Source: a virus. From it: DNA of 53,564 nucleotides. Within the stretch, counting starts at the first letter, position 1; every line of letters begins with the position of its first letter. This document shows, piece by piece, positions 8,580 to 48,000 of this stretch. Under the pieces are notes generated by a model that was not told the DNA's origin, ran no database searches, and saw only the letters and a list, made by a program, of their open reading frames with translations. Where the stretch lies: the IMG/VR virus record IMGVR_UViG_3300030393_000016, positions 1 to 53,564 of that record; one strand, written 5' to 3'. The position numbers and the translations under genes were made by a program.

Positions 8580-8609
8580 CAAATATAATACAATTAGTCT
8601 TTACACAAA
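8580..8609 (-). promoter_or_regulatory. Leftward repressor promoter
   Basis: Minus strand: TTTG (8609-8606), 18 nt, TATATTTG (8587-8580), close to the Bacteroidota consensus. The transcript would start near 8573, run left across the early promoter and the operators, and reach the repressor start at 8505. Confidence 0.6.
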
Positions 8610-8661
8610 TAGCAATTAAATGCTATGAGAAGTATCTGCTAAAAATAGAACACAAAATTGT

Positions 8662-8928
8662 ATGATAACACCTGCAATACGAGAGCGCATTAAAACACAT
8701 TTGGGTAGCCATTATATTGACAATGTAATGGAAATATTGAATGAAAAAGGTATCACAAATCGTTTTGGAAACTCTCATAGTGTATCTACTATATCACAGG
8801 TAATGAATCAGCAAAGAAGAAATGCAGATATAGAAAAAGTATTACTTAGTATATATGAAGAAAGTGAAAATGAAATAAAAAAACCCGAGGTGGCCGCCTC
8901 AGGTTTTACACATAAAACTAATCCCTAA
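8662..8928 (+). CDS. Early gene, small DNA-binding-type protein
   Basis: 88 aa. The segment GSHYIDNVMEILNEKGITNRFGNSHSVSTISQVMNQQRRN looks like a helix-turn-helix in which the spacer before the recognition helix is long. The family is known to me only as a small phage regulator of Bacteroidota. It is the first rightward gene, opposite the repressor, the place of a cro-like gene. A hairpin lies over its last codons. Confidence 0.55.
   Translation: MITPAIRERIKTHLGSHYIDNVMEILNEKGITNRFGNSHSVSTISQVMNQQRRNADIEKVLLSIYEESENEIKKPEVAASGFTHKTNP
8881..8906 (+). terminator. Hairpin over the end of the early gene
   Basis: AAACCCGAGG / CCTCAGGTTT, 10-bp stem with one mismatch and loop TGGCCG, followed by TTTTAC. 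It lies within the coding end, 34 bases before the next start (8940). It may be a partial terminator or attenuator between the first early gene and the rest. Confidence 0.5.
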
Positions 8929-8939
8929 CGATTAAAATC

Positions 8940-9533
8940 ATGCACAGCAAATCTACAAAAGATAATCAATTTAAGCAAGCTTTTAGTTTGATACCTGGAT
9001 TATTACCTGGCGATCATTCAACCGAATTATTTGGTGATCGAGAAACAAGAAAAGTATATGGAGTAAGCGATGGTAAAACAATTCCATTCTATAACATACC
9101 TCCCACTTTAAAAGCTCAAATTTTTGAGAAAATGCTTAGCGATAAAATCGCCATGCAAGACCTAGAACACCTTCAACATGATGAGGCACTCGAAGAATAT
9201 GCTTTTTGTATTTATGGTGATGCTGATGGTGTGGCTGATTTCACAGAAAATGGCACTAATAATTCATCAGAAAATTTTACCTGCGGAGAAAACTGTAAGT
9301 GTTTAAAATGGAACTCTAAACAAATCTCCATTAATGGTAATAATCTAACTCCAAGAGAGGTACAGGTTACTAAACAATTAGCTAGCGATAAACCTGATAA
9401 GGCTATAGCCGATGAGTTAAAAATCAGCACACACACGCTAACACAGCACAAGCGAAGCTTGTATGAAAAAGCAGGAGTACAAAGTCGTTCAGGACTATTA
9501 GAGAAAGGATACCAACAACGTGTAATACATTAG
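8940..9533 (+). CDS. LuxR-type HTH protein with Cys cluster
   Basis: 197 aa. The C-terminal 55 residues (LTPREVQVTKQLASDKPDKAIADELKIS...) are a LuxR/FixJ-type helix-turn-helix. The N-terminal part is not a receiver domain. Just before the HTH lies CGENCKCLKW (about 115-124), a three-cysteine cluster that could bind a metal. Probably a transcription factor of the early region; it could be the activator for later genes, but that is inference from position. Confidence 0.7.
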   Translation: MHSKSTKDNQFKQAFSLIPGLLPGDHSTELFGDRETRKVYGVSDGKTIPFYNIPPTLKAQIFEKMLSDKIAMQDLEHLQHDEALEEYAFCIYGDADGVADFTENGTNNSSENFTCGENCKCLKWNSKQISINGNNLTPREVQVTKQLASDKPDKAIADELKISTHTLTQHKRSLYEKAGVQSRSGLLEKGYQQRVIH

Positions 9534-9535
9534 TT

Positions 9536-9736
9536 ATGGATACATTTTTAATGATACTACACTACGCTGCTACAATTATTTGGATCATAATGATACCCTA
9601 CACGGGCAAATATATACGACTAAGAATAAAAACTAATAGCATTCGCGATGCCTATAGATTAGAAAAACTAATACTGCTATGCTTTGGCCTTTTTGCTATC
9701 TCTTTTATAACCTACATATCAACTTCAACTTTATAA
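9536..9736 (+). CDS. Small two-segment membrane protein
   Basis: 66 aa with two hydrophobic helices (about 4-22 and 46-63) joined by a basic loop (KYIRLRIKTNSIRDAYRLEK). The ATG is one base after the LuxR-type gene's stop. No family recognised. Confidence 0.6.
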   Translation: MDTFLMILHYAATIIWIIMIPYTGKYIRLRIKTNSIRDAYRLEKLILLCFGLFAISFITYISTSTL

Positions 9737-9740
9737 TGAT

Positions 9741-10238
9741 ATGAAAGATTTTAGAAAGCAAGAAGAGGAAGCATGGAAAGCTGTTAAAGAACACTATCCC
9801 AACGATTGGCAAAAAATGGTTGCTAATGCTAGAGGAGAAATAAAAAGAACCATTAGGATTAAAAAATATGATGAAACTCCAGAACACACACGTAAAGCCG
9901 TCAGAGAGATTACTCATAACGAAAGCATACTGAATATAAAACCATTAGCATTACTAGCTGCAGCTCATGTAGTAAACTTAGAAAAAGATTTACAGCAACG
10001 CGGTCAAGAATATAATGATAGGGTTTTTAGAATTAATAGAGAATTAAATAAACTAGAAACTATTGACTGGGATGAAAGTCTTAAAATCATTTTAAGAGCT
10101 TTCTATAAAGGTAGGATAGAAAAGATAAATAGATATAGTGAAACTATACTAAATGAAATATTAGAAATAAGACTTCCATTATGTGAAGTTGTAAAAAATA
10201 AATCGAAACCATATATCAATAGGTCATTTAAAGCCTAA
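9741..10238 (+). CDS. Helical protein of unknown function
   Basis: 165 aa, mostly charged helices (EEEAWKAVKEHYPNDWQKM..., LEKDLQQRGQEYNDRVFRINREL). No domain recognised. It starts 4 bp after the preceding gene's stop and belongs to the early operon. The next 125 bp hold two hairpins. Confidence 0.6.
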   Translation: MKDFRKQEEEAWKAVKEHYPNDWQKMVANARGEIKRTIRIKKYDETPEHTRKAVREITHNESILNIKPLALLAAAHVVNLEKDLQQRGQEYNDRVFRINRELNKLETIDWDESLKIILRAFYKGRIEKINRYSETILNEILEIRLPLCEVVKNKSKPYINRSFKA

Positions 10239-10280
10239 TGAATAACAATAGTTTAGTTGAGTAATTTTTTAGTTGGATGA

Positions 10281-10330
10281 GGCTACAGCAATGTAGTCGC
10301 CCTTACTCTCCCTGTAGCCCATACAGGGAG
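10281..10330 (+). other. Two adjacent hairpins in the early leader
   Basis: GGCTACA-GCAA-TGTAGTC (10281-10298) and CTCCCTGTA-GCCCA-TACAGGGAG (10308-10330, perfect 9-bp stem). Neither has a T-run, so they are more likely RNA structure or protein sites ahead of the gene at 10364 than terminators. Confidence 0.5.
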
Positions 10331-10363
10331 GGGATATAGGGTTAATCATTAAGTACATTAATT

Positions 10364-10597
10364 ATGAGCAAAGCACAAAGAATAACCCATTTTAAAGAAA
10401 TACTAGCTACTGCAAAAAACTTGCAAGAGGTAGCCAGACAGCAATTAAAATCTGCTACACGTCTCGAAAGTGAAGCAATTTCTGCCCTCGAGGAGCTTGG
10501 GAGTTCCTCTGGGCAGGGTCGCAAGACCGAAGCTCTTACTCCTGAAGAAAAATTAAAATTAATGGCTGGGCTTACAGGAGGTAAAAGCCTAGCATAA
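10364..10597 (+). CDS. Small helical protein of unknown function
   Basis: 77 aa, one long amphipathic helix (KEILATAKNLQEVARQQLKSATRLESEAISALEEL), then a Ser/Gly linker and LTPEEKLKLMAGLTGG. No family recognised. It stands alone between the hairpins and the tRNA-like element. Confidence 0.55.
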   Translation: MSKAQRITHFKEILATAKNLQEVARQQLKSATRLESEAISALEELGSSSGQGRKTEALTPEEKLKLMAGLTGGKSLA

Positions 10598-10610
10598 CAA
10601 CCACACCACA

Positions 10611-10661
10611 GGCAGGATGCAAATGTATACAGGAGCTACAGGGTTCGAATCCCTTCCTGCC
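10611..10661 (+). ncRNA. 51-nt tRNA-like element
   Basis: GGCAGGA (10611-10617) pairs perfectly with TCCTGCC (10655-10661) as a 7-bp acceptor stem. Directly inside the 3' strand is a T-arm AGGG-TTCGAAT-CCCT with a canonical T-loop. Only 22 nt remain between the 5' strand and the T-arm (they include the self-complementary TGTATACA), too few for both D and anticodon arms. It could be a minimal tRNA mimic, a decayed phage tRNA or a relic att site. It lies in a gene-free gap. Confidence 0.5.
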
Positions 10662-10763
10662 CCTAAAACAACACCGGAGGCAAGTAGTACTTGCAATTTA
10701 CCCTAATGCTTGAGGCAGCTTGATAACTGCCTCCGCTGCAGGGAGAAACAACTATTGTTATTT

Positions 10764-12500
10764 ATGAACACACAACGAACCAGTCAAACTACAACAGCTT
10801 TTAACACGGCACAAAATCTTTTCGGGCATGTGTCGCCTAAAGCAGTTGCTAAAGAACCTAAAAAAGATCCTGACTGTTTTAAAGCAGTTTACCCTATGTT
10901 TAATGCTGAGGCATTTAAACTAACGATGGATAATTATAGGCAAAAGGTGAGTGAATATAACACCTCTGTAGAGTGGTTTAATGTAGACGTGTGTAACCAT
11001 AATCAAAACGTTGCTCTTTATTTAAAAAGGAAAGCAACCGACCTGCAAAAAAAGTATGCTGAATATTTCCCTAAGCTCAACAAAGAGCTTTCAATTAAAG
11101 CATACAACGCTGCTGCAGATAAAGCTAATAAAGAGAATGGACCAATAATTCTAAAGAAAGAGTTACAAACAGTAAAACCAAATACTGAACTCTTCTTTCA
11201 GAATTTCATTCATGTCTATAACGGACAACTCGAAAAACACAACAAAGAGTACATCCGCTTTGGTATTAAAACCCCTCGCCCACTACCTCCCATTAAGATC
11301 AATCCGTATTTTATTACGCAATTACAGCGCGCTGAAGGTGTTTTTAGCCTAAAGGTGTGCGCTAGAACTGTACGCAATCATAGAAAGCGATTAGAGGAGG
11401 CTGGAGTACTTGTAAATAGTAATTTTAGAGGACAAAACAGAGCTGTAGAAGTAGAAATTTCCCCCGAAATTTTATTCGTTTATGACGACTTCACACAACA
11501 AATAACATCTCCTGAAAATCAATCGCTTAACTCTTCTGAACGGAAAGAGTTTCCTTATAATAATGATACTACTAGATCATATAAAGAAGAATATAAAGAA
11601 GAGAACGATGCTGTGCAGTCGTTTGTTGATAAGGAGTCGCAAGCGACAACCTCTTCACATTACAAGAACAATTTTTACAAGAGCACCAGAAGCAAGCTAC
11701 AAAATTCACCAGAGGGCGCGCCGAGCGAAAATTTAAAAAAGCCAAAAACATTAAGTGATAATCTACGGGAACAGATACTACATCCGCAGGAACTAGCTGA
11801 ACAACTCACAAATAATGAGTATGATAACCATATCCCTATCGATATAAGGATATTATCAAAAGAAGCTATGTATGGCACAATGCCTAATGAAGAATACAGA
11901 CAGCTGGTGATTCAAGACTTATTCAAGCAATCAGCTAAAATGTGGAGAAACAGTACTCCCTACGTTGGTAGCTGGAAAAATGCAATAAACCACTGGTTAG
12001 AGCTTCGTTTCATGAGCAACATCACGAATAGCGAAAAAGTACCTTGGCATAAAAGCACAATACTCGAGAAGGTAACAGAGTACCGTTGGAGATTAGAGAA
12101 TGCTCGTAGATGGTTCCTGAAATCAAATGTAAAAGTAAAGCCACTCTACCCGTCTGATTATTTCGATACACAACGTAAAACTTCTCGAGAAGTAGGTTTT
12201 GAGTTTACAGAGAAGAACTGGAAAGACCATCTAAAATATACAGCCAAGTTACCTGAGAATAAGCGTAATAAGAAACTTGCAGCTGAAGAAAGAAAGCAAC
12301 GATTAAATGATTCTAAAAAACTTGAGCGAGTAATTAATCGTTTCATAAAAGAGAAAATAACTCTCGATCAACTCATCGAGTATGTACAGCATAATTTGCC
12401 AGAGCAATACTATGATGAACTCCCGAAAACATTACAACAAAAAATGGCCACTGGTGCATTGCCTCCAGGAATAAATATAGTAATCCCTAACAATTATTAA
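10764..12500 (+). CDS. Winged-helix replication-type protein
   Basis: 578 aa from ATG 10764; a TTG start at 10710 would add 18 residues, but their reading is Cys-rich and unlike the rest. The part around 190-245 (INPYFITQL..VCARTVRNHRKRLEEAGVLV...) reads as a winged-helix DNA-binding domain. A Ser/Gln/Glu-rich linker and a basic C-terminal half follow, with WRNSTPYVGSWKNAINHWLELRF. The largest early gene; its place before many small genes suggests a replication initiator or helicase loader. No polymerase, helicase or primase is visible elsewhere, so the phage would depend on host replication. Confidence 0.5.
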   Translation: MNTQRTSQTTTAFNTAQNLFGHVSPKAVAKEPKKDPDCFKAVYPMFNAEAFKLTMDNYRQKVSEYNTSVEWFNVDVCNHNQNVALYLKRKATDLQKKYAEYFPKLNKELSIKAYNAAADKANKENGPIILKKELQTVKPNTELFFQNFIHVYNGQLEKHNKEYIRFGIKTPRPLPPIKINPYFITQLQRAEGVFSLKVCARTVRNHRKRLEEAGVLVNSNFRGQNRAVEVEISPEILFVYDDFTQQITSPENQSLNSSERKEFPYNNDTTRSYKEEYKEENDAVQSFVDKESQATTSSHYKNNFYKSTRSKLQNSPEGAPSENLKKPKTLSDNLREQILHPQELAEQLTNNEYDNHIPIDIRILSKEAMYGTMPNEEYRQLVIQDLFKQSAKMWRNSTPYVGSWKNAINHWLELRFMSNITNSEKVPWHKSTILEKVTEYRWRLENARRWFLKSNVKVKPLYPSDYFDTQRKTSREVGFEFTEKNWKDHLKYTAKLPENKRNKKLAAEERKQRLNDSKKLERVINRFIKEKITLDQLIEYVQHNLPEQYYDELPKTLQQKMATGALPPGINIVIPNNY

Positions 12501-20262: not shown

Positions 20263-20598
20263 ATGAAACCTACTACTTTATCTATAATACAAATCCTAAA
20301 AGATTTCGGCTTTGATGTCATACTATTTATAGCAGGACTAGCAGGTGGTATTGTTGTTTTAAATAGAAGCAATAAACTTACTCGTATTCAAAAATTTTCA
20401 ACAGTACTCTCTGGAGGGCTTACAGCTAACTACCTAACACCTTTAGTAGCAGAATGGTTAAATCTTTCAGATAAAACGCTCTACGGGCTTGCATTTATTT
20501 TAGGATATGGTGGTTTAAAATTTGTAGAAATTTTCTACATCTCCTTTCACAACAAATTTTCAACATCAAAAATAACTAAATCAGAAACTGATGAGTAG
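20263..20598 (+). CDS. Holin-like membrane protein
   Basis: 111 aa with hydrophobic segments at about 15-34, 45-62 and 72-92 and a charged, acidic C-terminus (KITKSETDE). Placed directly before and overlapping the amidase gene by 8 bases. Size, topology and place fit a holin; the sequence itself belongs to no holin family I can name. Confidence 0.65.
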   Translation: MKPTTLSIIQILKDFGFDVILFIAGLAGGIVVLNRSNKLTRIQKFSTVLSGGLTANYLTPLVAEWLNLSDKTLYGLAFILGYGGLKFVEIFYISFHNKFSTSKITKSETDE

Positions 20599-21106
20599 AG
20601 CTAAAAAAATAAAGTACATCACAGTGCACTGTTCTGCAGGTTTTTCAGGTATTAAAGCCATAAAAGCCTTTTGGAAAAGATTAGGATGGCGATCTCCTGG
20701 TTACCATATTCTTATAAATCGTAACGGTAAAGTACACCAATTGCACGATTTCAATAGAATTAGTAACGGTGTAAGAGGATATAATACACAATGTATCAAT
20801 ATCTGTTATATAGGAGGTGTCGAAAAAACAGCAGCAGGAAAATACATTGGTAAAGATACCAGGACTCCTGAACAAAAGGAAGCATTAGAAAATGAGATTA
20901 TTAAAGCTATCGAGTGGGTTAAAAACAATGGAGGTAATATCGAAGAGCTTTCTATTCTAGGCCATCGCGATTTCTCTCCAGATGTAAATGGTAACAATGT
21001 AATTGAGTCATTCGAAAGAATAAAAGAGTGCCCGAGCTTCAATGCTATACAAGAATATAAGCATCTACTCGATCATAAAAAAATAATATTACCCTCAAAC
21101 AGATAG
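20591..21106 (+). CDS. N-acetylmuramoyl-L-alanine amidase (endolysin)
   Basis: 171 aa Amidase_2 domain: YITVHCSA with zinc ligand H13, PGYHILINRNGKVHQL, and ILGHRDFSP...ECPSF with H125 and C147 as the other ligands. No signal peptide, so release would need the holin. It cuts the amide bond between N-acetylmuramic acid and the stem peptide. Full domain, normal length. Confidence 0.9.
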   Translation: MSRAKKIKYITVHCSAGFSGIKAIKAFWKRLGWRSPGYHILINRNGKVHQLHDFNRISNGVRGYNTQCINICYIGGVEKTAAGKYIGKDTRTPEQKEALENEIIKAIEWVKNNGGNIEELSILGHRDFSPDVNGNNVIESFERIKECPSFNAIQEYKHLLDHKKIILPSNR

Positions 21107-21682: not shown

Positions 21683-22555
21683 ATGAAAGTAAATCCAATG
21701 TTAATGGAACTGGCTCGTGGTGAATGGTTGATGGATGTTAATACATTATCAACATGGAGTCCTATAGCTTATAAAATTCTCTCTGGAGAAGATTTCTCAA
21801 TTGACTCTTCTACGGCTTCTATAATGACTGTTGTAGATAGCAAAGGTGTAATGCATCATCCTGACAAAGATGGTCACATAGAAACTCCTAAAGGTTCAGT
21901 AGCCATCATTAATATGATCGGCCCCATTTTAAAATATGGAGATTGGTGTGCCTATGGCGCCGATGATATTGTAAATGCATTAAAAGCAGCAGACAATAAC
22001 CCGAACATAAAAGGTACAGTGTTTATAGTCGATGGACCAGGAGGTGCAGTATCAGCTATAGGACCTTTTATTGAGTTTGCAAAAACTAAAACCAAGCCAG
22101 TAATTGGTTTGGCCGATGAAGCATTTTCACTCCATTATTGGGCACTATGTGCCGTATCAGATTATAAAATGGCAGATAATAACGTTTCTGCAGGTTTTGG
22201 ATCTGTAGGTGTAGTTGCATCTTACCTAGATAACAGAGAGCATTTAGAAAAGTTAGGATTCAAGTTTCATGATATTTACCCAGACGAGAGTAAACATAAA
22301 AACGAAGCTGTGAAGCTAGCCCTGGAGGGTAAGTATGATCTAATCAAAAAAGAACATCTCTCTCCTGTTGCTATTAAGTTTCAAGATGCAGTACGAGCTG
22401 CATGCCCTTCTTTAAAAGAAGCTACAGGAGTACTTACAGGGAAAACATTCTCTGCAGATAAAGCACTCGAGTATGGTATGATCGATGGTATTGGTAGTCT
22501 TGATAAAGCCATCGAAAAAATACATGTACTCTCAGAAATTAACGCGTTACAATAA
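21683..22555 (+). CDS. S49-family (SppA-like) prohead protease
   Basis: 290 aa. The core shows VAIINMIGPI, GTVFIVDGPGGAVSA, then DEAFSLHYWALCAVSDYKMADNNVSAGFGSVGVVAS, the S49 layout in which the Ser of the FSLHYW segment would be the nucleophile. In phages this family cleaves scaffold and capsid precursors during head maturation. Directly before the capsid gene. No signal peptide, in line with a cytosolic phage enzyme and unlike host SppA. Confidence 0.8.
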   Translation: MKVNPMLMELARGEWLMDVNTLSTWSPIAYKILSGEDFSIDSSTASIMTVVDSKGVMHHPDKDGHIETPKGSVAIINMIGPILKYGDWCAYGADDIVNALKAADNNPNIKGTVFIVDGPGGAVSAIGPFIEFAKTKTKPVIGLADEAFSLHYWALCAVSDYKMADNNVSAGFGSVGVVASYLDNREHLEKLGFKFHDIYPDESKHKNEAVKLALEGKYDLIKKEHLSPVAIKFQDAVRAACPSLKEATGVLTGKTFSADKALEYGMIDGIGSLDKAIEKIHVLSEINALQ

Positions 22556-34997: not shown

Positions 34998-35302
34998 TGA
35001 TGAAAAAATTAAAAGATTTATTCTACAGAATTTGGTATTTCAGAACAATTAAACGTTTTAATGGTTATAATAATAAACTAGCTAAAGCTATTAAAGATAG
35101 AGAGGTAGACCAGCTGATACTAAAACACTCTATAGTCACTTATATGCGCCGTTATATGGGTATAGATGTACAATCTGCTTTCATTCCGAAAAGCTATAAG
35201 AGCATCGAGAAAAGCAAACAGCAGGTTTTAGGTCGCTTTGGCGATGAGATGGAAAAATTAGGAATAACAATTAACGATAAGCTCGAGCTATGCACTCAAT
35301 AG
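34997..35302 (+). CDS. Small basic connector-region protein
   Basis: 101 aa, basic helices (MKKLKDLFYRIWYFRTIKRFNGYNNKLAKAIKDREVD). No family recognised. Starts at the stop of the preceding gene and overlaps the next by 13 bases. Confidence 0.5.
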   Translation: MMKKLKDLFYRIWYFRTIKRFNGYNNKLAKAIKDREVDQLILKHSIVTYMRRYMGIDVQSAFIPKSYKSIEKSKQQVLGRFGDEMEKLGITINDKLELCTQ

Positions 35303-36210
35303 AAATTCCAGAAGCAGCATTAAAATTATTCATACCTGAAAATTTGGCTGAATGCGAGCGCGATCAGTACTTGGATATGTGCGCGTTATTGTATCAAGTA
35401 GCTACAGGATCTATTTCTTTTGAGCAAATGAAAGTACAGGCTGTGTATCGATTGTTGAATATAGTACCTGGTCGAAAACATGATGATACTTTTGATGATA
35501 TGGACGAACATCAAAAATGGGATAATGTAACTCAGCTTTCAATACTTGTAGACTCATTTTTTACTGATGATAATGGGCAAAAAGTAATAAGGCAAGACTA
35601 TACGCATAACCCTGTGCCTAAAATAAGACCATTGCTCAAAAATTATTTTGGACCAGCTGATAGCTTTACGAATGTAACCTTTGGAGAGTACAACGATGGC
35701 CTGCGCTTATTTTTAGAATATAGCACTACTGGAGAGTATGAAAAGTTGTACTTGCTTGCTGCTATATTTTATCGTCCTAAAAAGAAATGGTTATGGTTAG
35801 AGCGTAAGAAGGTAGACTATAATGGAGATGTAAGGGAGCAATATAACGCGAACAGTATAGCAAGTAGAGCTGCTAAGATAAAACAATATCATCCTGGCTT
35901 TGCTTATGGGTTTTATCTGCTATTTGCAAGTTTTCAGAAGTGCTTGACTCAAGCAGTGATCCCTTGGGGAAATAGAGAGCTAGATTTGTCGATACTATTT
36001 GATGCTGATGCTGCAGGAGAAAGTGATGATGAAGCGGTGCCTGGTATAGGGATGGATAGCTTGGCTTATGCAATTGCTGAGAGTGGCGAGTTTGGAACTA
36101 TAGAGGATGTACGGAACACTAACCTTTGGGAGGTACTAATACGACTGTATGACCTCAAGAAAAAAGATCTCGATTACAAACAAAACGAAAAAGATAATGC
36201 TATTAATTAG
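35290..36210 (+). CDS. Hypothetical structural-region protein
   Basis: 306 aa, helical. FIPENLAECERDQYLDMCALLYQVATGSISFEQMKVQAVYRLL at the start and an acidic C-terminal part (DADAAGESDDEAVPG). Probably a connector or head-tail protein by place; I know of no function. Confidence 0.5.
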   Translation: MHSIEIPEAALKLFIPENLAECERDQYLDMCALLYQVATGSISFEQMKVQAVYRLLNIVPGRKHDDTFDDMDEHQKWDNVTQLSILVDSFFTDDNGQKVIRQDYTHNPVPKIRPLLKNYFGPADSFTNVTFGEYNDGLRLFLEYSTTGEYEKLYLLAAIFYRPKKKWLWLERKKVDYNGDVREQYNANSIASRAAKIKQYHPGFAYGFYLLFASFQKCLTQAVIPWGNRELDLSILFDADAAGESDDEAVPGIGMDSLAYAIAESGEFGTIEDVRNTNLWEVLIRLYDLKKKDLDYKQNEKDNAIN

Positions 36211-36885: not shown

Positions 36886-37216
36886 TGTGCTAAAAGGACG
36901 TTTTGTAAAACGAGTGCTTAGTACTCAAGCTACAGCTATAAACCTTGCCCAGGTTAAATACATGGCGAGTAACAACTTTACTAGTTCTGACTGGATTAAT
37001 GATCGAGGTTTTACAACTACAGAAACTGCTTTGGAATATAGCCAAAAACTCAAGCATCGTTTTGTGGATATGAAAACGAGAAAAAATAGTAAAGGCAATA
37101 AAAAAAGAAAGGTGCAGCACCCTATTCATAATAAAATAATCTGGGGTCATTATAATAATATTGTGCGCGAGCTTGCTCATGGTTATACTGAAGCTGTGAA
37201 AGAAGAATTGAGCTAA
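36857..37216 (+). CDS. Hypothetical tail-assembly-region protein
   Basis: 119 aa, basic (KTRKNSKGNKKRKVQHPIHNKIIWGHYNNIVREL). Probably a small head-tail or tail protein at the end of the portal unit. No family recognised. Confidence 0.5.
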   Translation: MTKQEQQLDDVLKGRFVKRVLSTQATAINLAQVKYMASNNFTSSDWINDRGFTTTETALEYSQKLKHRFVDMKTRKNSKGNKKRKVQHPIHNKIIWGHYNNIVRELAHGYTEAVKEELS

Positions 37217-37249
37217 ATGGAATAATGTTAAAATAAATTTTATTAATCC

Positions 37250-37284
37250 TTTGTTTTCTTTTATTTTAGCTTATTTAATACTTG
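37250..37284 (+). promoter_or_regulatory. Promoter candidate of the defence-like cassette
   Basis: TTTG at 37250-37253, 22 nt, then TAATACTTG (37276-37284), a near match to the Bacteroidota -7. The methyltransferase starts at 37301. Confidence 0.4.
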
Positions 37285-37300
37285 ATTTTATAAAATTCAA

Positions 37301-38362
37301 ATGAAATTAAAAGCAATAGATTTGTTCAGCGGAGCAGGAGGCATGAGTGTAGGTGCTTCAATGGTTGGGATAGAAGTTGTTGTAGCTGTTGAATCTGACT
37401 CACATGCTGCTGAATCATTCAAGGCTAATCATGCAAATGCTGAAATAATTCAAAATGATATAAGAGAAATCTCTTTAGATCCAAAATACAAAGATCTTTT
37501 TATACTATTTGGAGGCCCACCTTGTCAAGGTTTTTCTATTTCTAACACAAAAACCCGAAATTCCGAAAATAAAAACAACTCATTGTTTCATGAGTTTATT
37601 AGACAAGTTGACGAGATGAACCCAAAATGGTTTGTTTTTGAAAATGTAGAGGGTATTACAACTTTTGAAAAAGGAACTATCGTTGCCAAGTTGGAAAAAA
37701 AATTCGAAAAATTAGGATATAAAACTAGTTGGAAAGTTCTCACTGCATCAGATTACGGTGTTCCGCAAAATAGAAATCGATTTTTTATGGTAGGTAACAG
37801 ATTAGGAATTGATTTTTCATTTCCTGATAAAGAAGAGGAAGTAATTACTGTAAAGGAAGCTATTAAAGATTTACCTAAACTAGAAAATGGAGCTAATCAT
37901 GATCTTCTAAATTACAAAAAAGTAAAGATTACTCCTTATATTAAACTCATGAGAGGCAATTCAAAAAAACCTTCTCAAAATTATGTTTCCAAAAATCAAC
38001 CATATGTTATCGAAAGGTATAAACATATAAAACCAGGGCAAAATTGGAAAGCTATACCAGTAGAATTAATGACTAATTACAAAAATACATCTAATTGTCA
38101 CAGTGGTATATACAAACGTCTCGATCCTAAAAAACCATCGGTGGTAATTGCAAATTACAGAAAAAACATGCTCATTCACCCCTATGAGCATAGAGGACTT
38201 TCTGTTAGAGAAGCAGCACGAATTCAAAGTTTCCCCGATAATTTCATGTTTAAAGGAAATCTATCTTTTCAACAGCAACAAATAGGTAATGCGGTTCCGC
38301 CTTTATTGGCTAAAGCAATTTTTAAACAAATTATTGAATCATATAAAACATCAAAAAAATAA
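37301..38362 (+). CDS. DNA cytosine-5 methyltransferase
   Basis: 353 aa with every main motif in order: I DLFSGAGGMSVG (7-18), IV GGPPCQGFS (71-79, catalytic C75), VI ENVEG (about 114), VIII QNRNRFFMV (about 157), then a target-recognition region (about 185-270), and IX/X RGLSVREAARIQSFPDNF and QIGNAVPP. It should be active and move a methyl group from S-adenosylmethionine to C5 of cytosine in a specific sequence. No restriction endonuclease follows; the next genes are a GHKL ATPase, a receiver and a CHAT-like protein. The cassette is more AT-rich than the structural genes around it, a sign of separate origin. Confidence 0.95.
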   Translation: MKLKAIDLFSGAGGMSVGASMVGIEVVVAVESDSHAAESFKANHANAEIIQNDIREISLDPKYKDLFILFGGPPCQGFSISNTKTRNSENKNNSLFHEFIRQVDEMNPKWFVFENVEGITTFEKGTIVAKLEKKFEKLGYKTSWKVLTASDYGVPQNRNRFFMVGNRLGIDFSFPDKEEEVITVKEAIKDLPKLENGANHDLLNYKKVKITPYIKLMRGNSKKPSQNYVSKNQPYVIERYKHIKPGQNWKAIPVELMTNYKNTSNCHSGIYKRLDPKKPSVVIANYRKNMLIHPYEHRGLSVREAARIQSFPDNFMFKGNLSFQQQQIGNAVPPLLAKAIFKQIIESYKTSKK

Positions 38363-38379
38363 CCTGTTACTAAAACTTT

Positions 38380-40500
38380 ATGGCTAAAAAAGAAACAAAT
38401 TTTTTGAAATTCAATTTTGACGTAAGTGCATATAGACTTTTAGGACGTGAATTGATTACAGATCGAATCACAGCATTATTTGAATTGGTTAAAAATTCTT
38501 ATGATTCTAACGCAAATGAAGTTAATATCCAGTTTATCAATGTTAACCCTATCTCTTTAGATTCCAAAATCATTATTTCAGATGATGGTTTTGGAATGGA
38601 TTATGGTGATATTAAAAATAGATGGATGGTAATTGGAACTAGTAGTAAAAGGAGAGAAAGAAGAACTCCTCCCCCATATAATCGTTTAGTTTCTGGTAAA
38701 AAAGGAGTAGGACGTTTCGCTGTAGATAAACTTGGAGCAAAGTTAGTCCTAAAAACAAAGAAAAAAGGCACTAATAAACTTTTCTGTTTAGAAACAGATT
38801 GGATAAATTATTCTAAAATTGAAGAACAACAGTTATCCATTAATTTTGAAAAAGAAAAAGATTTTTTTACTGATATTAAAAATCGATATTGGTTAGAAGA
38901 TGCAGATATAGATCAACATGGTACTTCTCTAGAAATATCTAGGATTAATCAAGAATGGACCGAAAAAGATATAAATAGAGCTATTAAAGAATTATCTAAA
39001 CTAATTTCACCTAATAATGAGCATAAACAGTTTCCATTTCGTATTAGATTAAAAACAGATTATGAAAATTTTAAAGATACTGATGTTAAGGTACAGTTAG
39101 TAGATTTTGCGACTTTAAAATTTGAACTAGGGTATAATTCAGAATCTAAAACACAAGAAATTTTACAATTTAAAAAAGATAATTTAGAAGTAATAAATAT
39201 ACCGTATAGAGATTTTGGTCCTTTTAAAGCTACAATTTATTATTTCGATCAAACTGCAAAAGCTAAATATAGAAAACATTTTAATTCAGAAATTGATGGT
39301 ATAAAAATATATAGAGATGGTCTTATAACTACTCCATTTGCTGAATACGTAGATACTCAAAATGAACAAAAAGATATTTTAGGAATAGATAAAAGGAGAT
39401 GGTCTGGTTTTTTTGATAAGCTCGGATCTAGAGATCTTTTAGGGTTTATTGAAATTACTGATGAGTTAAACCCATTGATCGTTGAATCTACAAACAGACA
39501 GGGTTTTGTTGACAACAATGAGTTTGATCAATTAAAAAAAATTGTAATTGAACAGATTCAACAAATTGAAAAATACCTTCAAAGTCAAAAAATAAAATCT
39601 CGTGAAAAAACAAAATCAGGACTTAGTGCTGCTAGGGGGACAATAAAAGATTTAAAAGGTGATATTTCTAGAATTAAAGATAATGCCACCCCTGAAGTAA
39701 AAGGAGTTTTAGAAGAAATCGAAACAAATTTATCTAAATTACAAGGGACTGTAAATAAAAGCATTACAGATTACAATAAATTAGAAGAAGAATCAAAGCA
39801 AAAAGAAGACCTTTTTAAAAGTTTAGTCTCTTTACAAACTTTTGCAGCAATGTTTTCACATATGGCAAGACATACCATTGGTCATATATTAACTAGTGCT
39901 GAATATTTCAATAATAATTTCCCTAATCCAAATTTAGAGCATCGTTTTAAAAAAATTTCTAAAAAAATTTTCAATGAAATGATTAAACTAAAAACTGGAG
40001 TTGACTTTATGCTTAAATATGCACAGTCTAATAGCGATATGGAAGAAATTAGTATGAAAGCAGTTATAGAAAACTTGTTCTATATTATTTATGATGAAAT
40101 ACTTAGCAAAGAAAAGATTAAAACAGAAGTGATTTTAGATAAAGATTTAATAGTAACTTATAATAGAAAATCAATTGAAGATATAATCGATAATTTGATT
40201 TCAAATTCAATTAAAGCTCTTAAAAACACCAAAGACAAAAAAATAAAATGCAGTGGTATTTTGAATGATAAAAATTTTACTCTGTATTTTTCTGACAATG
40301 GTATGGGAGTAGATGAGCAAGATAAATATAGGATTTTTGATGTGTTTTTTACAACTACTCCGCATGAAGGTGGTGCTGGATTGGGCTTATATATGGTCAA
40401 AACTAGAATTGAATCAATGGGGGGAGAAATAGAGCTGATAGAAAATGAATTTAAACCAACTGGAGCTACATTTAAAATTACTATACCATTTAAAAAATAG
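38380..40500 (+). CDS. Double GHKL ATPase: MORC/Hsp90-like plus histidine-kinase-like
   Basis: 706 aa with two separate Bergerat folds. First: ALFELVKNSYDSNAN (N39), SDDGFGMD (67-74), and GKKGVGRFAVDKLG (106-119), the MORC/Hsp90/MutL type, followed by a transducer-like region to about 390. Then a coiled coil (about 400-480). Second: FAAMFSHMARHTIGH (H494/H498, H-box-like), EDIIDNLISNSIKAL (N-box, about 601-615), SDNGMGV and GGAGLGLYMVK, the histidine-kinase type. No membrane segment. It could sense DNA or protein by the first domain and phosphorylate the neighbouring receiver by the second. The function is inferred; the domains are plain. Confidence 0.9.
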   Translation: MAKKETNFLKFNFDVSAYRLLGRELITDRITALFELVKNSYDSNANEVNIQFINVNPISLDSKIIISDDGFGMDYGDIKNRWMVIGTSSKRRERRTPPPYNRLVSGKKGVGRFAVDKLGAKLVLKTKKKGTNKLFCLETDWINYSKIEEQQLSINFEKEKDFFTDIKNRYWLEDADIDQHGTSLEISRINQEWTEKDINRAIKELSKLISPNNEHKQFPFRIRLKTDYENFKDTDVKVQLVDFATLKFELGYNSESKTQEILQFKKDNLEVINIPYRDFGPFKATIYYFDQTAKAKYRKHFNSEIDGIKIYRDGLITTPFAEYVDTQNEQKDILGIDKRRWSGFFDKLGSRDLLGFIEITDELNPLIVESTNRQGFVDNNEFDQLKKIVIEQIQQIEKYLQSQKIKSREKTKSGLSAARGTIKDLKGDISRIKDNATPEVKGVLEEIETNLSKLQGTVNKSITDYNKLEEESKQKEDLFKSLVSLQTFAAMFSHMARHTIGHILTSAEYFNNNFPNPNLEHRFKKISKKIFNEMIKLKTGVDFMLKYAQSNSDMEEISMKAVIENLFYIIYDEILSKEKIKTEVILDKDLIVTYNRKSIEDIIDNLISNSIKALKNTKDKKIKCSGILNDKNFTLYFSDNGMGVDEQDKYRIFDVFFTTTPHEGGAGLGLYMVKTRIESMGGEIELIENEFKPTGATFKITIPFKK

Positions 40501-40504
40501 ACTT

Positions 40505-41107
40505 ATGGAATTAACAATTGTAATAATTGACGATAGTCCTGCAATAGAAGAACATGCACTATTATATACCTTAGAAGATAATTATCGAAATGTAAAATTC
40601 TTTTTAAAACCGGAAGAAGGGTTAGATTATATTTTAAATCATCTTCATTTAAATATTATTGTCTTATTAGATATAGAATTTTCACCAACAGATAAAGAAG
40701 ATGGTCATTCCATTTTAAAAAAAATAAAAAGTAAGTCAAGCCTTGTTCCTGTTATTTTATGGAGTGCCATCAATGAAAATGAAGAGTCATTTAGTGACTT
40801 TATTAATAATCATGCATTCGGTTTTATTCATAAAGATGAAACTATAGAAAAATCAATGGTTATTATTAATAAAGCCGTTACATTCCTAGAAACAAGTCTT
40901 GATAATATCATCGAAGATTGGATTATCAGTAAAAATGAAGATAAAGACAAACCTATTTATTTAACTTCTGATGGTCAATCTTTCTCCTTAAACGATATAC
41001 TATTTGAAGTAAGAAATCAAACTGAAGTAGGGAAAGATTTTTCTAGAAAATTAAATTCTTTAACAATAGATTTATTATTAAGAAAAAAAGAGACCATCAA
41101 TGATTGA
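40505..41107 (+). CDS. Receiver-domain protein (response regulator)
   Basis: 200 aa from ATG 40505 (an upstream ATG at 40445 lies inside the ATPase gene). Receiver residues are all present: D9-D10, phospho-acceptor D56 in VLLDIEF, S87 in ILWSA, K110 in FIHKD. The C-terminal 80 residues are helical and not a DNA-binding domain I know. Four bases after the kinase-like gene's stop and overlapping the next gene by 8, so the three are made together. Likely phosphorylated by the histidine-kinase-like half of its neighbour. Confidence 0.85.
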   Translation: MELTIVIIDDSPAIEEHALLYTLEDNYRNVKFFLKPEEGLDYILNHLHLNIIVLLDIEFSPTDKEDGHSILKKIKSKSSLVPVILWSAINENEESFSDFINNHAFGFIHKDETIEKSMVIINKAVTFLETSLDNIIEDWIISKNEDKDKPIYLTSDGQSFSLNDILFEVRNQTEVGKDFSRKLNSLTIDLLLRKKETIND

Positions 41108-41705
41108 TACAGTTTTAGTAATAGATGAATCTGATAATACTTTAGGTAGTTTTTTTCAATCATGTCAAAATGATTTATATGCTTTTTTTAATCTGACAGG
41201 TGTTAACCCTACCCTAATAAATAGTAATCGTTTAAATGACTTGTCAATAAAAGTCACAACCGAACCTCTTGAAAAATTTATTTTTGGAGCATATTCACAT
41301 GGAGATAAAAATTGTCTCGTAAAAGCACAATTACCTTATATATCAACAGCATTAAACAATTCTTTTTTTAAAAATTCTTTTTTTTATACTTTCTCGTGTA
41401 GCTCTGGATATGAGTTAGGAAGCAACTTAATTGAAAATGGTTGTCTCACTTTTATTGGATATAATCAGGTCATCTCAATTTGGAGCACATATATTAAGCC
41501 TTTCGTAGAATGCGCAAATTATGGATTAATTCGTTTTTACGATGGAGAAGATACTTATTCAATTGTTGAACAAATGAAGGTTAAATATACCAATGAAATA
41601 GACTCTATTTATTCGAGTGATTTTTTAATTGCTTCTATACTTAGGGAGAATAGAGATGCCTTAGTTATACATGGGGAAAATATTAATATTAATAACATAA
41701 AGTAA
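41100..41705 (+). CDS. CHAT/caspase-like protease candidate (effector)
   Basis: 201 aa. FGAYSHGDKN supplies a His-Gly (H67-G68), and FFYTFSCSSGYELGSNLIENGCLTFIGYNQVISIW supplies the Cys (C100) with a following Gly and a buried strand. This is the order and spacing of the catalytic dyad in CHAT and other caspase-like (clan CD) peptidases, where the pattern is HG...SACxTGxG...GxxxVIGxxW. No other domain. Last gene of the cassette and translationally coupled to the receiver. Likely kept inactive until signalled; target unknown. Confidence is moderate because the family is divergent. Confidence 0.6.
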   Translation: MIDTVLVIDESDNTLGSFFQSCQNDLYAFFNLTGVNPTLINSNRLNDLSIKVTTEPLEKFIFGAYSHGDKNCLVKAQLPYISTALNNSFFKNSFFYTFSCSSGYELGSNLIENGCLTFIGYNQVISIWSTYIKPFVECANYGLIRFYDGEDTYSIVEQMKVKYTNEIDSIYSSDFLIASILRENRDALVIHGENININNIK

Positions 41706-41733
41706 TTAGTATAAAACACTAAAAAACATTACT

Positions 41734-41757
41734 AAACCTGCATAAGCAGGTTTTTTT
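41734..41757 (+). terminator. Terminator of the defence-like cassette
   Basis: AAACCTGC-ATAA-GCAGGTTT followed by TTTT, 29 bases after the last stop. It sets the right edge of the cassette. Confidence 0.85.
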
Positions 41758-41777
41758 ATATCCGCAAATAAAAACAA

Positions 41778-41800
41778 TATTTGCCGTGACCAAATTACTA
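41778..41800 (+). repeat. 23-bp direct repeat, copy 1
   Basis: TATTTGCCGTGACCAAATTA-CTA, repeated at 42091-42113 with two differences. The stop codon of the leftward 63-aa gene is inside it. Confidence 0.65.
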
Positions 41801-41989
41801 ATCTTCTAGGGTTCTCAATGTAATCGTTATTGTGTTTTTATCCCAGTCCTCTATTATTTCAGAGATTTTCCAATATAACGTATGCCATATTATTACTCTA
41901 CCTATAGGTGGAATATTAATATTTTTTTTCTCTTCTTGAAACAATAAATTAGCATTCTCATCAAAGTATTTCACTCTAGTTTTTCCCAT
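41798..41989 (-). CDS. Hypothetical 63-aa protein
   Basis: 63 aa, beta-rich (TRVKYFDENANLLFQEEK..., WKISEIIEDWDKNTITITLRTLED), of the sort often annotated as small phage proteins of unknown role. It lies between two 23-bp direct repeats, reversed relative to its neighbours. Confidence 0.5.
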   Translation of the reverse strand: MGKTRVKYFDENANLLFQEEKKNINIPPIGRVIIWHTLYWKISEIIEDWDKNTITITLRTLED

Positions 41990-42036
41990 AATTAATATAT
42001 TTTTAAGCTAATTTATTACACCAAAGCGATATTGCC

Positions 42037-43650: not shown

Positions 43651-46600
43651 ATGGCAAAGAAAATCTCCGATGAGAAATTAAAATTAACCATTATTATTAA
43701 TGGTAATGAGGCGCAAAAAGAGCTTTTCGACCTAGAAAAATCAATGCGCGATCTTAATGGCCAACAAAAAGAACTTCGAAAAGAAAAGCAATTACTCGAG
43801 AAACAGAATAAAAAATCAACTAATAGGTATAAGGCTGTTAATAAAGCTATAAGGGAAAACAATGCTACTTTAAGAGTAAACAAGACCCGAATGAAAGAAC
43901 TGCAAGATCAAATTGGTCTTACAGGTTTAACTTTTAGTCAACTACGAAATAAAGCTAATCTATTAAGATTAAAGCTACAACACGTAATACCAGGTTCTAC
44001 AGACTATAAGCGTTATGATGCGGAATTGAAACAGATTACTGCTCGAATGGATCAGCTTAAAGGCAAGAGCCGTGCTGCTGCCTGGAGCATTGGAGGACTT
44101 GCAGATAAATTTAATCGTTTTGCTGCATTAGGTGCTACCCTAGTCGCCATGACTACTGGTGTCATACTCTCCTTGCAAAAAATGATTGACTATAATGGTA
44201 AGTTAGCAGGCGCACAGTCTAATGTACGTAAGACAGTAGGCTTGACTAAAAAGGAAGTTGATGAGCTTACAAAATCTTTCGGTATGTTACGATCACGTAC
44301 CGCCCGTATTGACTTACTTAAAATAGCAGAGGAAGGTGGTCGTATTGGTATAGTAAAAGACGAGATACAGGAATTTGTAGGGGTTATGGATAAAGCCAAT
44401 GTTGCTCTTGGTGATAGTTTTAAAGGTGGCCCTGAAGAAGTTGCCGAAAAACTAGGTAAGATTAAATTCTTATTTAAGGAAACTAAGGAAATGGGGGTTC
44501 AAGAATCATATATGGCTATTGGTAGTGCTATTAATGAGTTAGGAGCGAATGGACTGGCAAGCGAACGTAATATTGCCAACTTCACGAATAGGATAGGATC
44601 ACTTACCGATGTGTTGAAACCATCAGTATCTGAAACACTTGCATTAGGAGCTGCCTTTGAAGAATCGGGTATTGAAGCAGAGGTATCTTCCAGAGCTTAT
44701 AATATTTTCATGAAACAAGCAGCCAACCACGCTGGTAAGTTTGGTAAAGTCATGGGTAAATCACGTGAAGAAATAGAAGCATTAATAAATGCTAATCCAT
44801 TAGAGTTTATGCTACAATTTTCTGAAGGTTTACGAGGTATGAACGCTACTAATGTTGCCAAGACATTAAAATATCTAGGGCTTAATGCTGATGGTGCCAA
44901 TAAAGCCATTGGAGCAATGGGGAATAATACTGATCGATTTAGAGAGCTACTTATACTATCTAATGAAGCGTTTGAAGAAGGAACTTCATTAATCGATGAG
45001 TACAACATTAAAAACAATGACCTGGAGGCAACACTCTCTAAAATTAAAAAGACAGTTACTGGTTGGTTCTCTAGCGAGGGATTAGTGGCATGGCTTGCAG
45101 CTGCTGCAGAATGGTTTGCAAAGTTTATAGGAGCTACAGATGATGCTGATGGATCGGGTAAAAAATGGCGCGATACATTAGCATTTACAGCTAAGGCACT
45201 TGCCGTAGTTATTGCTGCAATGGTTACAAGTACTGCTTGGATGAAACTAATGTTATTATGGCAAACACGTAATACACAAGCAGGTTTGCTTTATAATCTC
45301 GGATTAAAAACAAAAGCTGCTTTAGAGGCTATAGCCGTTGTTAGAACAAGAGCAATGGTGTTAGCGCAAAACCTACTTAATTTAAATATTAGAGGATCTA
45401 TACAGGCTTTTAAGGCACTTAGCGCTGCTATGATGACTACTCCTTTTGGTTTAATTCTAGGTATAATAGCAGCTGTTACTACAGCTTATATCGCTTTCAG
45501 GGATAGTGCAAATGAAGCTGCAGCTGCAGTAAAAACAATTAGTGCTACTGCAGATGTTCAAAATGAGCACATGAAAGCACTTAGTAAAACCACTACAGAG
45601 CTAAAAAGCAAGATAGAGCCATTGATAAAAATACTGAAAGATGAAAGTGCCTCACTTGCAATACGAAAAATAGCCTATGAAAATTTAATAAAAATAAGCC
45701 CTGATTTTATTGATACCGTTGATAAGGAGTTTAAGGCGACGAATAAACTTACCGAAGCCTATGATGCCTTGATAAAAAAACTAGACCAAGCTGCACTGGC
45801 TAAAGCTAGAGAGAAAGTAAGGAAGGACAGATCTAATGCTGTAGCGGATGCTGAAGCTGCTGAATTTGATGCGAAATTAAAAGCAGATGCTGAAGCTGCT
45901 GAAAATGAAAGAAAGAGAAAGTCTAATGAAAAAGAAGCTGCTAAGGCATTAGAACGAATGCGTACAAGCACGAGTGAATATGCAGGGTATCATGCTCGAC
46001 AAGAAAACTACAGTTATGAAGCTCAGGAAGCCTATGAAAAGGCTAAAAAAGAGCATGCTGAAGCACGTAAAGCTCTGCAGAATTTCTCCGATTATCAATC
46101 TGAAACGATAGCCAAACTACAGGAGGAGCTTAAAAAACATAAAGAAGGGTCTAAAGAAGCATTACGCATACAAGCAGAAATTGATGCATTACTAGGTAAC
46201 ATAGGAAGCTCTACAACTCCTAATGGAAACTCAGGATATACAGTTGTAGAGGAAGGTGCTGAAAAAGCAACTCAAAAATCACATGATAAACGAATGAAAG
46301 CTCTTGAAAAATTTCAGGCTGAAATTTTAGGTTTATCTCGAAAAAGTATAGATGCGCGCCTTGCTTTAATGGAGGAAGGTATTGATAAAGAAGAAGCTAT
46401 CGAAATAGAAAGCCATCGTCGTAAGGTAGAAGGTCTTAAAAAGCAATTAATTGCTCAAGATGATATTCGTAATGCAGATAAAAAAATAAGCGATCCTAAA
46501 TCATCAGAACAAGATGTTGCCTACTGGACGAAACAGAAAGAGGTTTGGTTAGAAAAAAATAAACATATTTATGAGCTTCTTGAGCTGCAGTTATATACTC

Positions 46601-48000
46601 ATCGTTTACGAATGGCTAAAATAACAGAGCAAGGCGAGAATAATAAAATAGATAAACTTCAAGAACAATTTGAAGCTGAAAGAATAGTAAGAAAAACAGC
46701 TCATAATTACGAACTAACCGCTTTAGGGGCTAATGAAATAGCTAAGGAAGAACTACAGCGAGAATTTGATAGTAAGGAACTACAAAGGCAAGAAGCGCAT
46801 CTAAAAGAACTTTTAGATACTAAGGTAGCGATACTACAAGATCGAAATAAGAACATTGATTTTAGTTTGTTAACTCCTGAACAGCGAACAGCAATGGAGC
46901 AGGAAATAGCAGATCTAAAACTAAAGATATCTGAAATTGTAAAAGCTAAAGGAGATCTTTCTAGGAAAGGAGGAACAGACAATGTAGCTGATGCTTTCGG
47001 GCAGGCATTCGGCAGTGCTGATGTACTTGGGTATACTGCCGATCAGTGGGGTGCTACCTTTAGTAGTCTTGATACATTATCAGAAAAACTAGAAGCTACA
47101 AAAATGGTCATTGGCTCATTGCAGAATGTCTGGGGAACATACAATGAGTTTGTTAATTCTAATGAAAATGCACAGGTAAGAAGTTTTGCGAGCAATACTG
47201 ATTATAAAAAGAAGAGGTTAAAATGGCAATTAGATAATGGTTTCATTAACCAGGTACAATATACTCGAGAAGTTGAGCGACTTGATACAGAACTGGATCA
47301 TAAAAAGGCTGATGTTGAGTATAAGCAGGCTAAACGACAAAAAGCAATGGCAGCGATAAATATTCTTTTGAATACCTCTCAGGCTATTATGGGTATATGG
47401 GCACAAGTACCGAAATTCGATTTTGGTGTATCAGCTGGATTACTTACTAAAGTAGTCGCTGCTCTAGGAGCTGTGCAATTAGGTATGGTTTTAAAACAAC
47501 CGTTACCAGCTCGAGGGTATGAAAAGGGGCTTTATCCTGAATACGTAAAAAGAGAGCAAGATGGAAAACTATTCCGATCAACTTATGGAGGTACAACCCG
47601 ATCAGGATTAGTTACAAAACCTACACACTTTTTAACGGGAGAGAATGGTCCTGAAATGATAATTGACAGTAAGGCTTACAGGCAAATGTCACCCGAAACT
47701 AAAAATGCATTAGTGCGAGAGCTTCGCGGTATTAAAGGTTTTGAACAAGGGTATTATAGCGACAAACTAAAAGAATCACGTTATGAAGTACCTGGAGCTG
47801 CTACTGCACCACAAAACACTACAGAAAATACAATATCTACAGAATATCTATTAAGTGTTATTAGTCGTAATAGTGATATTATGGAGCGCGCTATAGAGGA
47901 AGGCTTTACAGGCTACTTCTCAAGAGATCCTCGCGACCTTAATAAACTGAAGAAAGAAATGGATCGTATTGAAAAATCAAAAGAAAAAGCAAGGAACTAA
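43651..48000 (+). CDS. Tail tape measure protein
   Basis: 1449 aa, the longest gene. N-terminal coiled coil (about 20-140), hydrophobic segments near 155-175, 515-535 and 590-615, a tail-tape-measure core (LAGAQSNVRKTVGLTKKEVDELTKSFGML and SSRAYNIFMKQAANHAGKFGKVMGKSREEIEAL), then long coiled coils to about 1250, and a C-terminal GYEKGLYPEYVKREQDGKLF.. part. It sets tail length and is expelled during DNA entry. At about 0.15 nm per residue its helical length would give a tail of roughly 200 nm (rule of thumb). Confidence 0.9.
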   Translation: MAKKISDEKLKLTIIINGNEAQKELFDLEKSMRDLNGQQKELRKEKQLLEKQNKKSTNRYKAVNKAIRENNATLRVNKTRMKELQDQIGLTGLTFSQLRNKANLLRLKLQHVIPGSTDYKRYDAELKQITARMDQLKGKSRAAAWSIGGLADKFNRFAALGATLVAMTTGVILSLQKMIDYNGKLAGAQSNVRKTVGLTKKEVDELTKSFGMLRSRTARIDLLKIAEEGGRIGIVKDEIQEFVGVMDKANVALGDSFKGGPEEVAEKLGKIKFLFKETKEMGVQESYMAIGSAINELGANGLASERNIANFTNRIGSLTDVLKPSVSETLALGAAFEESGIEAEVSSRAYNIFMKQAANHAGKFGKVMGKSREEIEALINANPLEFMLQFSEGLRGMNATNVAKTLKYLGLNADGANKAIGAMGNNTDRFRELLILSNEAFEEGTSLIDEYNIKNNDLEATLSKIKKTVTGWFSSEGLVAWLAAAAEWFAKFIGATDDADGSGKKWRDTLAFTAKALAVVIAAMVTSTAWMKLMLLWQTRNTQAGLLYNLGLKTKAALEAIAVVRTRAMVLAQNLLNLNIRGSIQAFKALSAAMMTTPFGLILGIIAAVTTAYIAFRDSANEAAAAVKTISATADVQNEHMKALSKTTTELKSKIEPLIKILKDESASLAIRKIAYENLIKISPDFIDTVDKEFKATNKLTEAYDALIKKLDQAALAKAREKVRKDRSNAVADAEAAEFDAKLKADAEAAENERKRKSNEKEAAKALERMRTSTSEYAGYHARQENYSYEAQEAYEKAKKEHAEARKALQNFSDYQSETIAKLQEELKKHKEGSKEALRIQAEIDALLGNIGSSTTPNGNSGYTVVEEGAEKATQKSHDKRMKALEKFQAEILGLSRKSIDARLALMEEGIDKEEAIEIESHRRKVEGLKKQLIAQDDIRNADKKISDPKSSEQDVAYWTKQKEVWLEKNKHIYELLELQLYTHRLRMAKITEQGENNKIDKLQEQFEAERIVRKTAHNYELTALGANEIAKEELQREFDSKELQRQEAHLKELLDTKVAILQDRNKNIDFSLLTPEQRTAMEQEIADLKLKISEIVKAKGDLSRKGGTDNVADAFGQAFGSADVLGYTADQWGATFSSLDTLSEKLEATKMVIGSLQNVWGTYNEFVNSNENAQVRSFASNTDYKKKRLKWQLDNGFINQVQYTREVERLDTELDHKKADVEYKQAKRQKAMAAINILLNTSQAIMGIWAQVPKFDFGVSAGLLTKVVAALGAVQLGMVLKQPLPARGYEKGLYPEYVKREQDGKLFRSTYGGTTRSGLVTKPTHFLTGENGPEMIIDSKAYRQMSPETKNALVRELRGIKGFEQGYYSDKLKESRYEVPGAATAPQNTTENTISTEYLLSVISRNSDIMERAIEEGFTGYFSRDPRDLNKLKKEMDRIEKSKEKARN

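Follow-up and report, generated by a model that had tools for sequence, protein, structure and literature searches.

A prophage-borne cassette of methyltransferase, double-GHKL kinase, receiver and predicted caspase-like protease recurs in other bacterial genomes and mobile DNA

We detected a four-gene cassette in a prophage (IMG/VR record IMGVR_UViG_3300030393_000016; the whole 53,564-nucleotide stretch analysed is hereafter the window) in which a cytosine DNA methyltransferase is followed by a histidine kinase with two GHKL ATPase folds, a receiver protein and a putative cysteine protease. The order of kinase, receiver and small protease-like gene was found at 12 loci by searches seeded with the kinase or the protease and, judged by this conservation, the four genes are one unit. 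They most likely constitute a defence or addiction module. The fuller reading, that the cassette is a mobile immunity module which probably also stabilizes its carrier, is one to which the sequence evidence leads us to give about even weight.

Cassette organization and prophage setting

The cassette occupies positions 37301–41705 and comprises four rightward genes on the + strand: a C5-cytosine DNA methyltransferase (353 aa; 37301–38362; Pfam DNA_methylase, 4.4e-76), a paraMORC-type GHKL ATPase/histidine kinase (706 aa; 38380–40500), a receiver (200 aa; 40505–41107; Pfam Response_reg, 3.6e-9) and a putative cysteine protease of predicted CHAT/caspase fold (201 aa; 41100–41705). The receiver start at 40505 was chosen by homology, the longest open reading frame beginning at 40445. 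Successive genes are separated by 17 bp and 4 bp and finally overlap by 8 bp, which bears out the tightly packed arrangement described in the original prediction, and the terminator proposed after the cassette corresponds to a terminator-like hairpin followed by a T-run (41734–41753, + strand). The promoter-like site placed ahead of the cassette did not hold up: a scan of 37000–42000 with the E. coli consensus only returned 28 sites against 29.2 (sd 5.8) expected, and none of them lay on the + strand in 37217–37300. No nuclease gene was recognized in the operon (Pfam, PADLOC, operon ORFs), and an ordinary type II restriction-modification system was ruled out on the lack of such a gene beside the methylase.

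The proposed prophage location agrees with the surrounding genes, as endolysin (20591–21106) and head maturation protease (21683–22555) genes are found upstream and a tape measure gene (43651–48000) downstream. The cassette had also been described as an AT-rich block. Its GC content is indeed 27–31%, compared with 33–40% immediately outside, but the window at 2–9 kb and 30–32 kb is equally AT-rich, so this composition alone marks nothing. Near the start of the prophage, a gene at 5549–6292 (−), the product of which starts with MKIFISWSGNTS, is TIR-like by eye and is possibly a further defence gene.

Since the window copy is located in the late structural region, and the copy on a viral contig (L025) lies after lysis-type genes (by eye), the cassette could potentially serve the phage's own cycle, for example through late-timed proteolysis or modification, instead of defence. 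We consider this very improbable, given that the operon of the window ends in a terminator-like hairpin of its own and that 10 of the 12 copies lie outside sequence recognized as phage, these two being the only phage-borne ones.

Domains and conserved residues

The cytosine methyltransferase anticipated as the first gene is confirmed by its Pfam match, and it is 60–76% identical to the copies in loci L008, L017 and L018 and 34% identical to that in L019. The kinase contains, as predicted, two GHKL folds in a single chain, namely HATPase_c_3 at aa 31–166 (38470–38877, + strand; Pfam, 5.9e-23) and HATPase_c at aa 597–705 (40168–40494, + strand; Pfam, 4.3e-22). The N-terminal ATPase, which by its family is of the MORC/MutL kind, carries eight residues (E35, N39, D68, G70, G72, G106, G109, and G111) that are identical in all five aligned sequences, the window's included, and this part of the kinase resembles the BbrUII/HgiDII restriction enzymes (NCBIfam, 2.9e-21; 75.7 bits, the cut-off being 550). 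In the same alignment, H494 and 17 other ATP-domain positions are identical in 5/5 sequences. H494 (codon 39859–39861, + strand) is the candidate phosphorylated histidine of what we read, by motif, as an H-box, and no DHp family was matched in the window kinase. This histidine was absent from the residues listed originally. The kinase has no 19-residue hydrophobic stretch resembling a membrane helix (maximum 1.03).

All the receiver residues that had been named are present. D9, D10, the phosphoacceptor D56 (codon 40670–40672) and S87 are identical in five of five aligned sequences (window included) and K110 in four. Pfam recognized no DNA-binding domain in the receiver. The parts of a two-component system, i.e., an H-box histidine (by motif only), a kinase ATP domain and a receiver aspartate, are thus all found. 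In PADLOC, the kinase and methylase match generic restriction models, while the receiver and protease match no model.

Scans of Pfam, NCBIfam, PADLOC and PHROGs, within the limits applied, gave no family match for the fourth protein, and therefore none to a curated CHAT or caspase sequence family in these collections. Its structure model, built from six sequences, has a mean pLDDT of 94.5. The first Foldseek matches of the model are SAVED-CHAT (top, 3.7e-5), separase, gingipain R and caspase-7, with Craspase TPR-CHAT likewise below 0.001, and a VIA comparison with SAVED-CHAT 8tl0_C gave a Z of 17.3 (rmsd 2.5, 173 of 201 residues). Model strands 60–65 and 93–98 directly precede H67 (codon 41298–41300) and C100 (codon 41397–41399), which stand at the positions of the caspase dyad. 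The fourth protein is hence predicted to be a putative cysteine protease of CHAT/caspase fold, in keeping with its original description as CHAT-like; a structural check that could have exposed a non-protease fold yielded this one instead. The His-Gly/Cys pair noted in the window protein is found in 12/12 cassette proteases.

Recurrence of the gene order

In addition to the prophage copy in the window, the cassette was found in L008 from Flavobacterium hercynium, where an HNH_2 endonuclease gene overlaps the protease gene, and in L017 and L116, both in chromosomal settings with no mobile genes recognized by eye. The order is conserved in L018, L030 and L062, while the kinase of L061 is split into two frames. 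Among the others, L025 lies on the viral contig mentioned above and L019 on a plasmid filed under Stenotrophomonas rhizophila (27–35% GC). The cassette of L114 is preceded by a small XRE-type gene (by eye) and its flanks end at the contig ends, and in L115 an FRG-domain-like gene (1778–2590, by eye) directly follows the protease gene. The cassette hosts other than the two species named above, together with the window's genome, represent six families of one class (f1, f2, f11, f59, f66, and f73). A feature confined to a single phage lineage can therefore be rejected, as the order recurs in other bacteria and on mobile DNA, including a plasmid and a viral contig. Association with known defence genes, which had also been suggested as a check, was noted at one locus: the L019 cassette (370–11008) is flanked at one end by TniQ together with PDC-S25, a candidate defence gene of SIR2 type (PADLOC), and at the opposite end by an annotated TnsA. 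The L019 cassette is cargo of a Tn7-like element.

The methyltransferase is the first gene in 11 of the 12 loci, i.e., wherever this position is visible, the L115 contig starting inside the kinase gene. Such constancy, with several of the copies being carried by mobile DNA (a prophage, a viral contig and a plasmid), would suit post-segregational addiction, whereby loss of the methylase causes the kinase to fire and the protease to kill, so that the prophage is retained and phage defence is secondary. Chromosomal copies without recognized mobile genes also occur (L008, L017, and L116; by eye), which argues against this explanation, and as an account of the cassette we regard it as unlikely.

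The protease profiles alone led to seven further proteins that were followed up, and six of these (G457, G621, G230, G1033, G853, and G983) lie in cassette order. The seventh, G895 (E 5e-4), lies outside it, in what by eye is a type I restriction-like locus. Weak profile hits were left aside, namely G318, G510 and G448 (39–74 profile positions, internal stops) and G236 (34 positions, one stop). The pattern HG...[SA]C fits 8 of the 109 ORFs of 180–260 aa in the scanned loci, all eight being cassette proteins, a count that shows specificity only because the pattern was drawn from cassette proteins. The window protease alone, searched against 296 phylum genomes, matched only itself, and against plasmids it matched nothing. 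Similarly, no matches were obtained in viral_contigs with profiles A1, A2 and A4 and the phage protein at 35290–36210, in phages with the L025 protease, or in plasmids with the L062 and L030 proteases; the L019 protease matched only its own two records among plasmids.

The cassette is rare. In even draws of 395 genomes each, it was found in six from the class, among them the window's own, and in at least four from the phylum (G000, G230, G688, and G088). A remnant in the window's genus (L066, 4796–6452, −) retains only the methylase, at 66% identity, and the first 190 kinase residues. It contains neither receiver nor protease and, as in L114, has a small XRE-type gene (by eye) ahead of the methylase.

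Relationships among the cassette proteases

The clear relatives of the window protease are those of L008, L017, L018, L114 and L115, which are 30–45% identical to it. A second branch comprises L025, L030, L061, L062 and L116, and the L019 protease is also remote (26% probability, E 7e-4). The six remote proteins share position, size and the His-Gly/Cys pair with the window's. Comparison of one branch profile with the other aligned the HG and C at 47% probability (E 2e-4), while a mixed profile that contains members of both branches gave 96.6% (E 5e-10). The two-sequence profile A1 (window and F. hercynium) gave no match to A12 (E 0.17), a comparison that misses three second-branch members. Alignment profile A8 missed L019, L061 and L062 at 1e-3, and these were recognized by position and motif. 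It is possible that the 12 proteases are one family, and also possible that two caspase-like families were recruited to the same slot, the structure model representing the window protein only.

Outputs of related kinase loci

At E ≤ 1e-20, the N-terminal kinase profile matched at 64 places in 54 of the 395 phylum genomes. Regions covering 43 of these were read, including the window and L030, and the 21 weaker or shorter ones were left out. Several kinds of output were seen in them. Receiver tails of RNxxAH type follow double-GHKL kinases in L026, L027, L029, L063–L065 and L067–L070, and in these receivers of ~300 aa, R247, N248 and H252 are invariant in 10/10 aligned sequences (seven from the draw and three viral). 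We take the RNxxAH motif to be HEPN-like. Pfam recognized no HEPN domain in the four tails scanned; the structure model of the tail is weak (block means 42–82), and the Foldseek matches displayed were receivers and response regulators. A HEPN fold is thus suggested for the tail by motif only. A HEPN-type output is nevertheless plausible because a 2013 article describes paraMORCs of restriction loci that are fused to HEPN domains (PMC3710099, in the available part).

An HNH nuclease gene lies behind the receiver gene in several loci (L063 and L089 by Pfam; L064, L094 and L096 by eye; plasmid L021 by annotation). A metallo-beta-lactamase-fold gene occupies the slot after kinase and receiver in L093 (3284–4264, −; Pfam) and follows them in L091 (4573–5628; by eye). 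Long receivers, most with a conserved ‘xCD’ motif in the second half that marks a candidate output domain, were observed in L020, L028, L071, L073, L074, L076–L084 and L086–L088. The ‘xCD’ group used in the first tree is a rough one of 17 rows, of which 10 were assigned by pattern and seven by eye or from the length of the receiver. A later motif check upheld six of those seven, with the exception of L085, and added L078 and L087 as further carriers of the motif.

In each of the two kinase trees, caspase-like genes are found in at least two groups of loci, which are separated by RNxxAH loci. A single clade of CHAT-linked kinases was rejected (p-AU 7.6e-56; 32 chosen kinases, quick method) in a test whose groups were named after the first tree and which did not include L115 (cut) and L061 (split). 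The fragments L026 and L066 were excluded from the first tree. As the CHAT-linked kinases are not one clade, at least two kinase lineages have a caspase-like output, and this pattern suggests that effectors have been exchanged under one kind of sensor relay.

The HNH genes could potentially indicate a different role, in which the kinase and receiver regulate restriction-modification, the caspase-like protein is a regulatory protease within it, and the nuclease is missing from the window copy through loss. The HNH_2 gene overlapping the L008 protease gene, HNH_2 after the receivers in L063 (Pfam) and L064 (by eye) and the XRE-type genes before the methylase in L114 and L066 (by eye) are in line with such control, as is the regulation of restriction proposed for the 2021 relatives in the main text of PMC8011034. 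Opposing it, no HNH or other nuclease was recognized beside the other 11 cassettes by eye and scans (the flanks of L114 and L115 being cut), and the receiver has no recognized DNA-binding domain. We judge restriction control to be improbable for the cassette.

Comparison with described systems

Chains of HATPase_c_3, H-box and HATPase_c beside receiver and C5 methylase genes were described in 2021, and HNH_2 and Vsr occur in their vicinity (Bellieny-Rabelo et al., PMC8011034, main text). The cassette resembles these HEF_HK/Response_reg_2 elements in having both HATPase domains, an H-box, an adjacent receiver and an upstream C5 methylase, and HNH_2 is found nearby in some members of both sets. 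It differs from the elements described there (PMC8011034) in that the window proteins lack PF19191 and PF19192 and the kinase falls in another tree branch. HEF_HK (PF19191) gave no match to the window kinase at E ≤ 1, while the L092 kinase, from a branch other than the window's, matches it above the cut-off and served as positive control. Elsewhere in the window's genome, PF19191 has only two matches, both below the cut-off. Response_reg_2 (PF19192) was not found in the window's genome at E ≤ 10, with no positive control above the cut-off for this model. With both profiles unmatched and a different tree branch, membership of the 2021 family was rejected.

The words caspase, protease, CHAT, HEPN, peptidase and phage are all absent from the main text of PMC8011034, though a protease could be among the uncharacterized neighbour groups it lists. 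The novelty proposed originally for the four-part set does not extend to its first three parts: within the open-licence literature, no described system joining these parts with a protease was found, while the first three parts as a set have been known since 2021 (PMC8011034, main text).

Other systems share single parts with the cassette. The paraMORC/BbrUII-HgiDII restriction ATPases also place an N-terminal GHKL ATPase by DNA methylases (NCBIfam NF050001; PMC2292703, available part), but are coupled to nucleases or helicases, whereas in the cassette the partners are a kinase half and a receiver encoded separately. In VcSduA, a Shedu protein with a GHKL domain, the paraMORC-type ATPase domain is required for phage defence; it controls a defence effector, as it may in the cassette, although that of VcSduA is a fused nuclease without a phosphorelay (PMC12137116, available part). 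DefensePredictor names HATPase + REC in a figure legend of unvalidated predictions (PMC13092281, available part).

The cassette protease resembles the CRISPR CHAT proteases (SAVED-CHAT 8tl0 and Craspase TPR-CHAT) in predicted fold and His/Cys positions. The CRISPR proteases are switched on by a nucleotide messenger or target RNA, whereas the cassette protease has no such partner and neighbours a receiver. Detocs uses two-component parts in phage defence, as the cassette may, but has another effector and is not known to include a methylase.

Proposed pathway

A pathway ending in an effector is suggested by the combination of a marker, a sensor kinase, a receiver without a recognized DNA-binding domain, a stand-alone protease and killing-type domains elsewhere in the same slot. 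The methyltransferase would mark cognate sites in the lysogen, and the kinase would read foreign or unmarked DNA via its MORC/MutL-like N-terminal ATPase, methylation being the presumed signal. The kinase would then autophosphorylate on H494 and pass the phosphate to D56 of the receiver, which may contact and switch on the caspase-like protease; cleavage of a cellular or phage protein would stop the infection. This route from unmarked DNA through H494 and D56 to the protease is proposed because the ATPase is of the MORC/MutL kind and because defence by VcSduA needs its paraMORC-type domain (PMC12137116, available part). The same pathway would fire if the methylase were lost by segregation, and defence and addiction are therefore not exclusive.

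The mobile immunity module is supported by the domains and active-site residues, the predicted protease fold, the conserved order and the differing outputs of related loci, which are of nuclease or toxin type. More tentatively, and short of favouring it, we put forward the general scheme that the self-mark of a restriction system is sensed by a kinase of MORC type and passed on as a His-Asp phosphate to an exchangeable killing module, i.e., the caspase-like protease here, and a HEPN-like tail, an HNH nuclease or a metallo-beta-lactamase-fold enzyme in relatives. If true, restriction would become a signalling pathway instead of direct cutting. The cassette itself joins bacterial MORC-type ATPases and caspase-fold proteases in one predicted pathway, and it supplies the methylase, paraMORC-kinase and receiver elements of 2021, described without tested function, with a concrete candidate output open to mutation and assay, the predicted caspase-like protease.

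Several observations count against the module: the position of G895 outside the cassette, the rarity of the cassette, the weak links to the remote proteases, the L066 remnant with its methylase and kinase fragment only, and the HNH endonuclease of L008, which could itself do the killing. Finally, inspection by eye placed a caspase-like protein (HG...SC) of L117 (5516–6160, −) in a type I restriction-like locus, where an hsdS-like gene and a large ATPase-like gene flank it.
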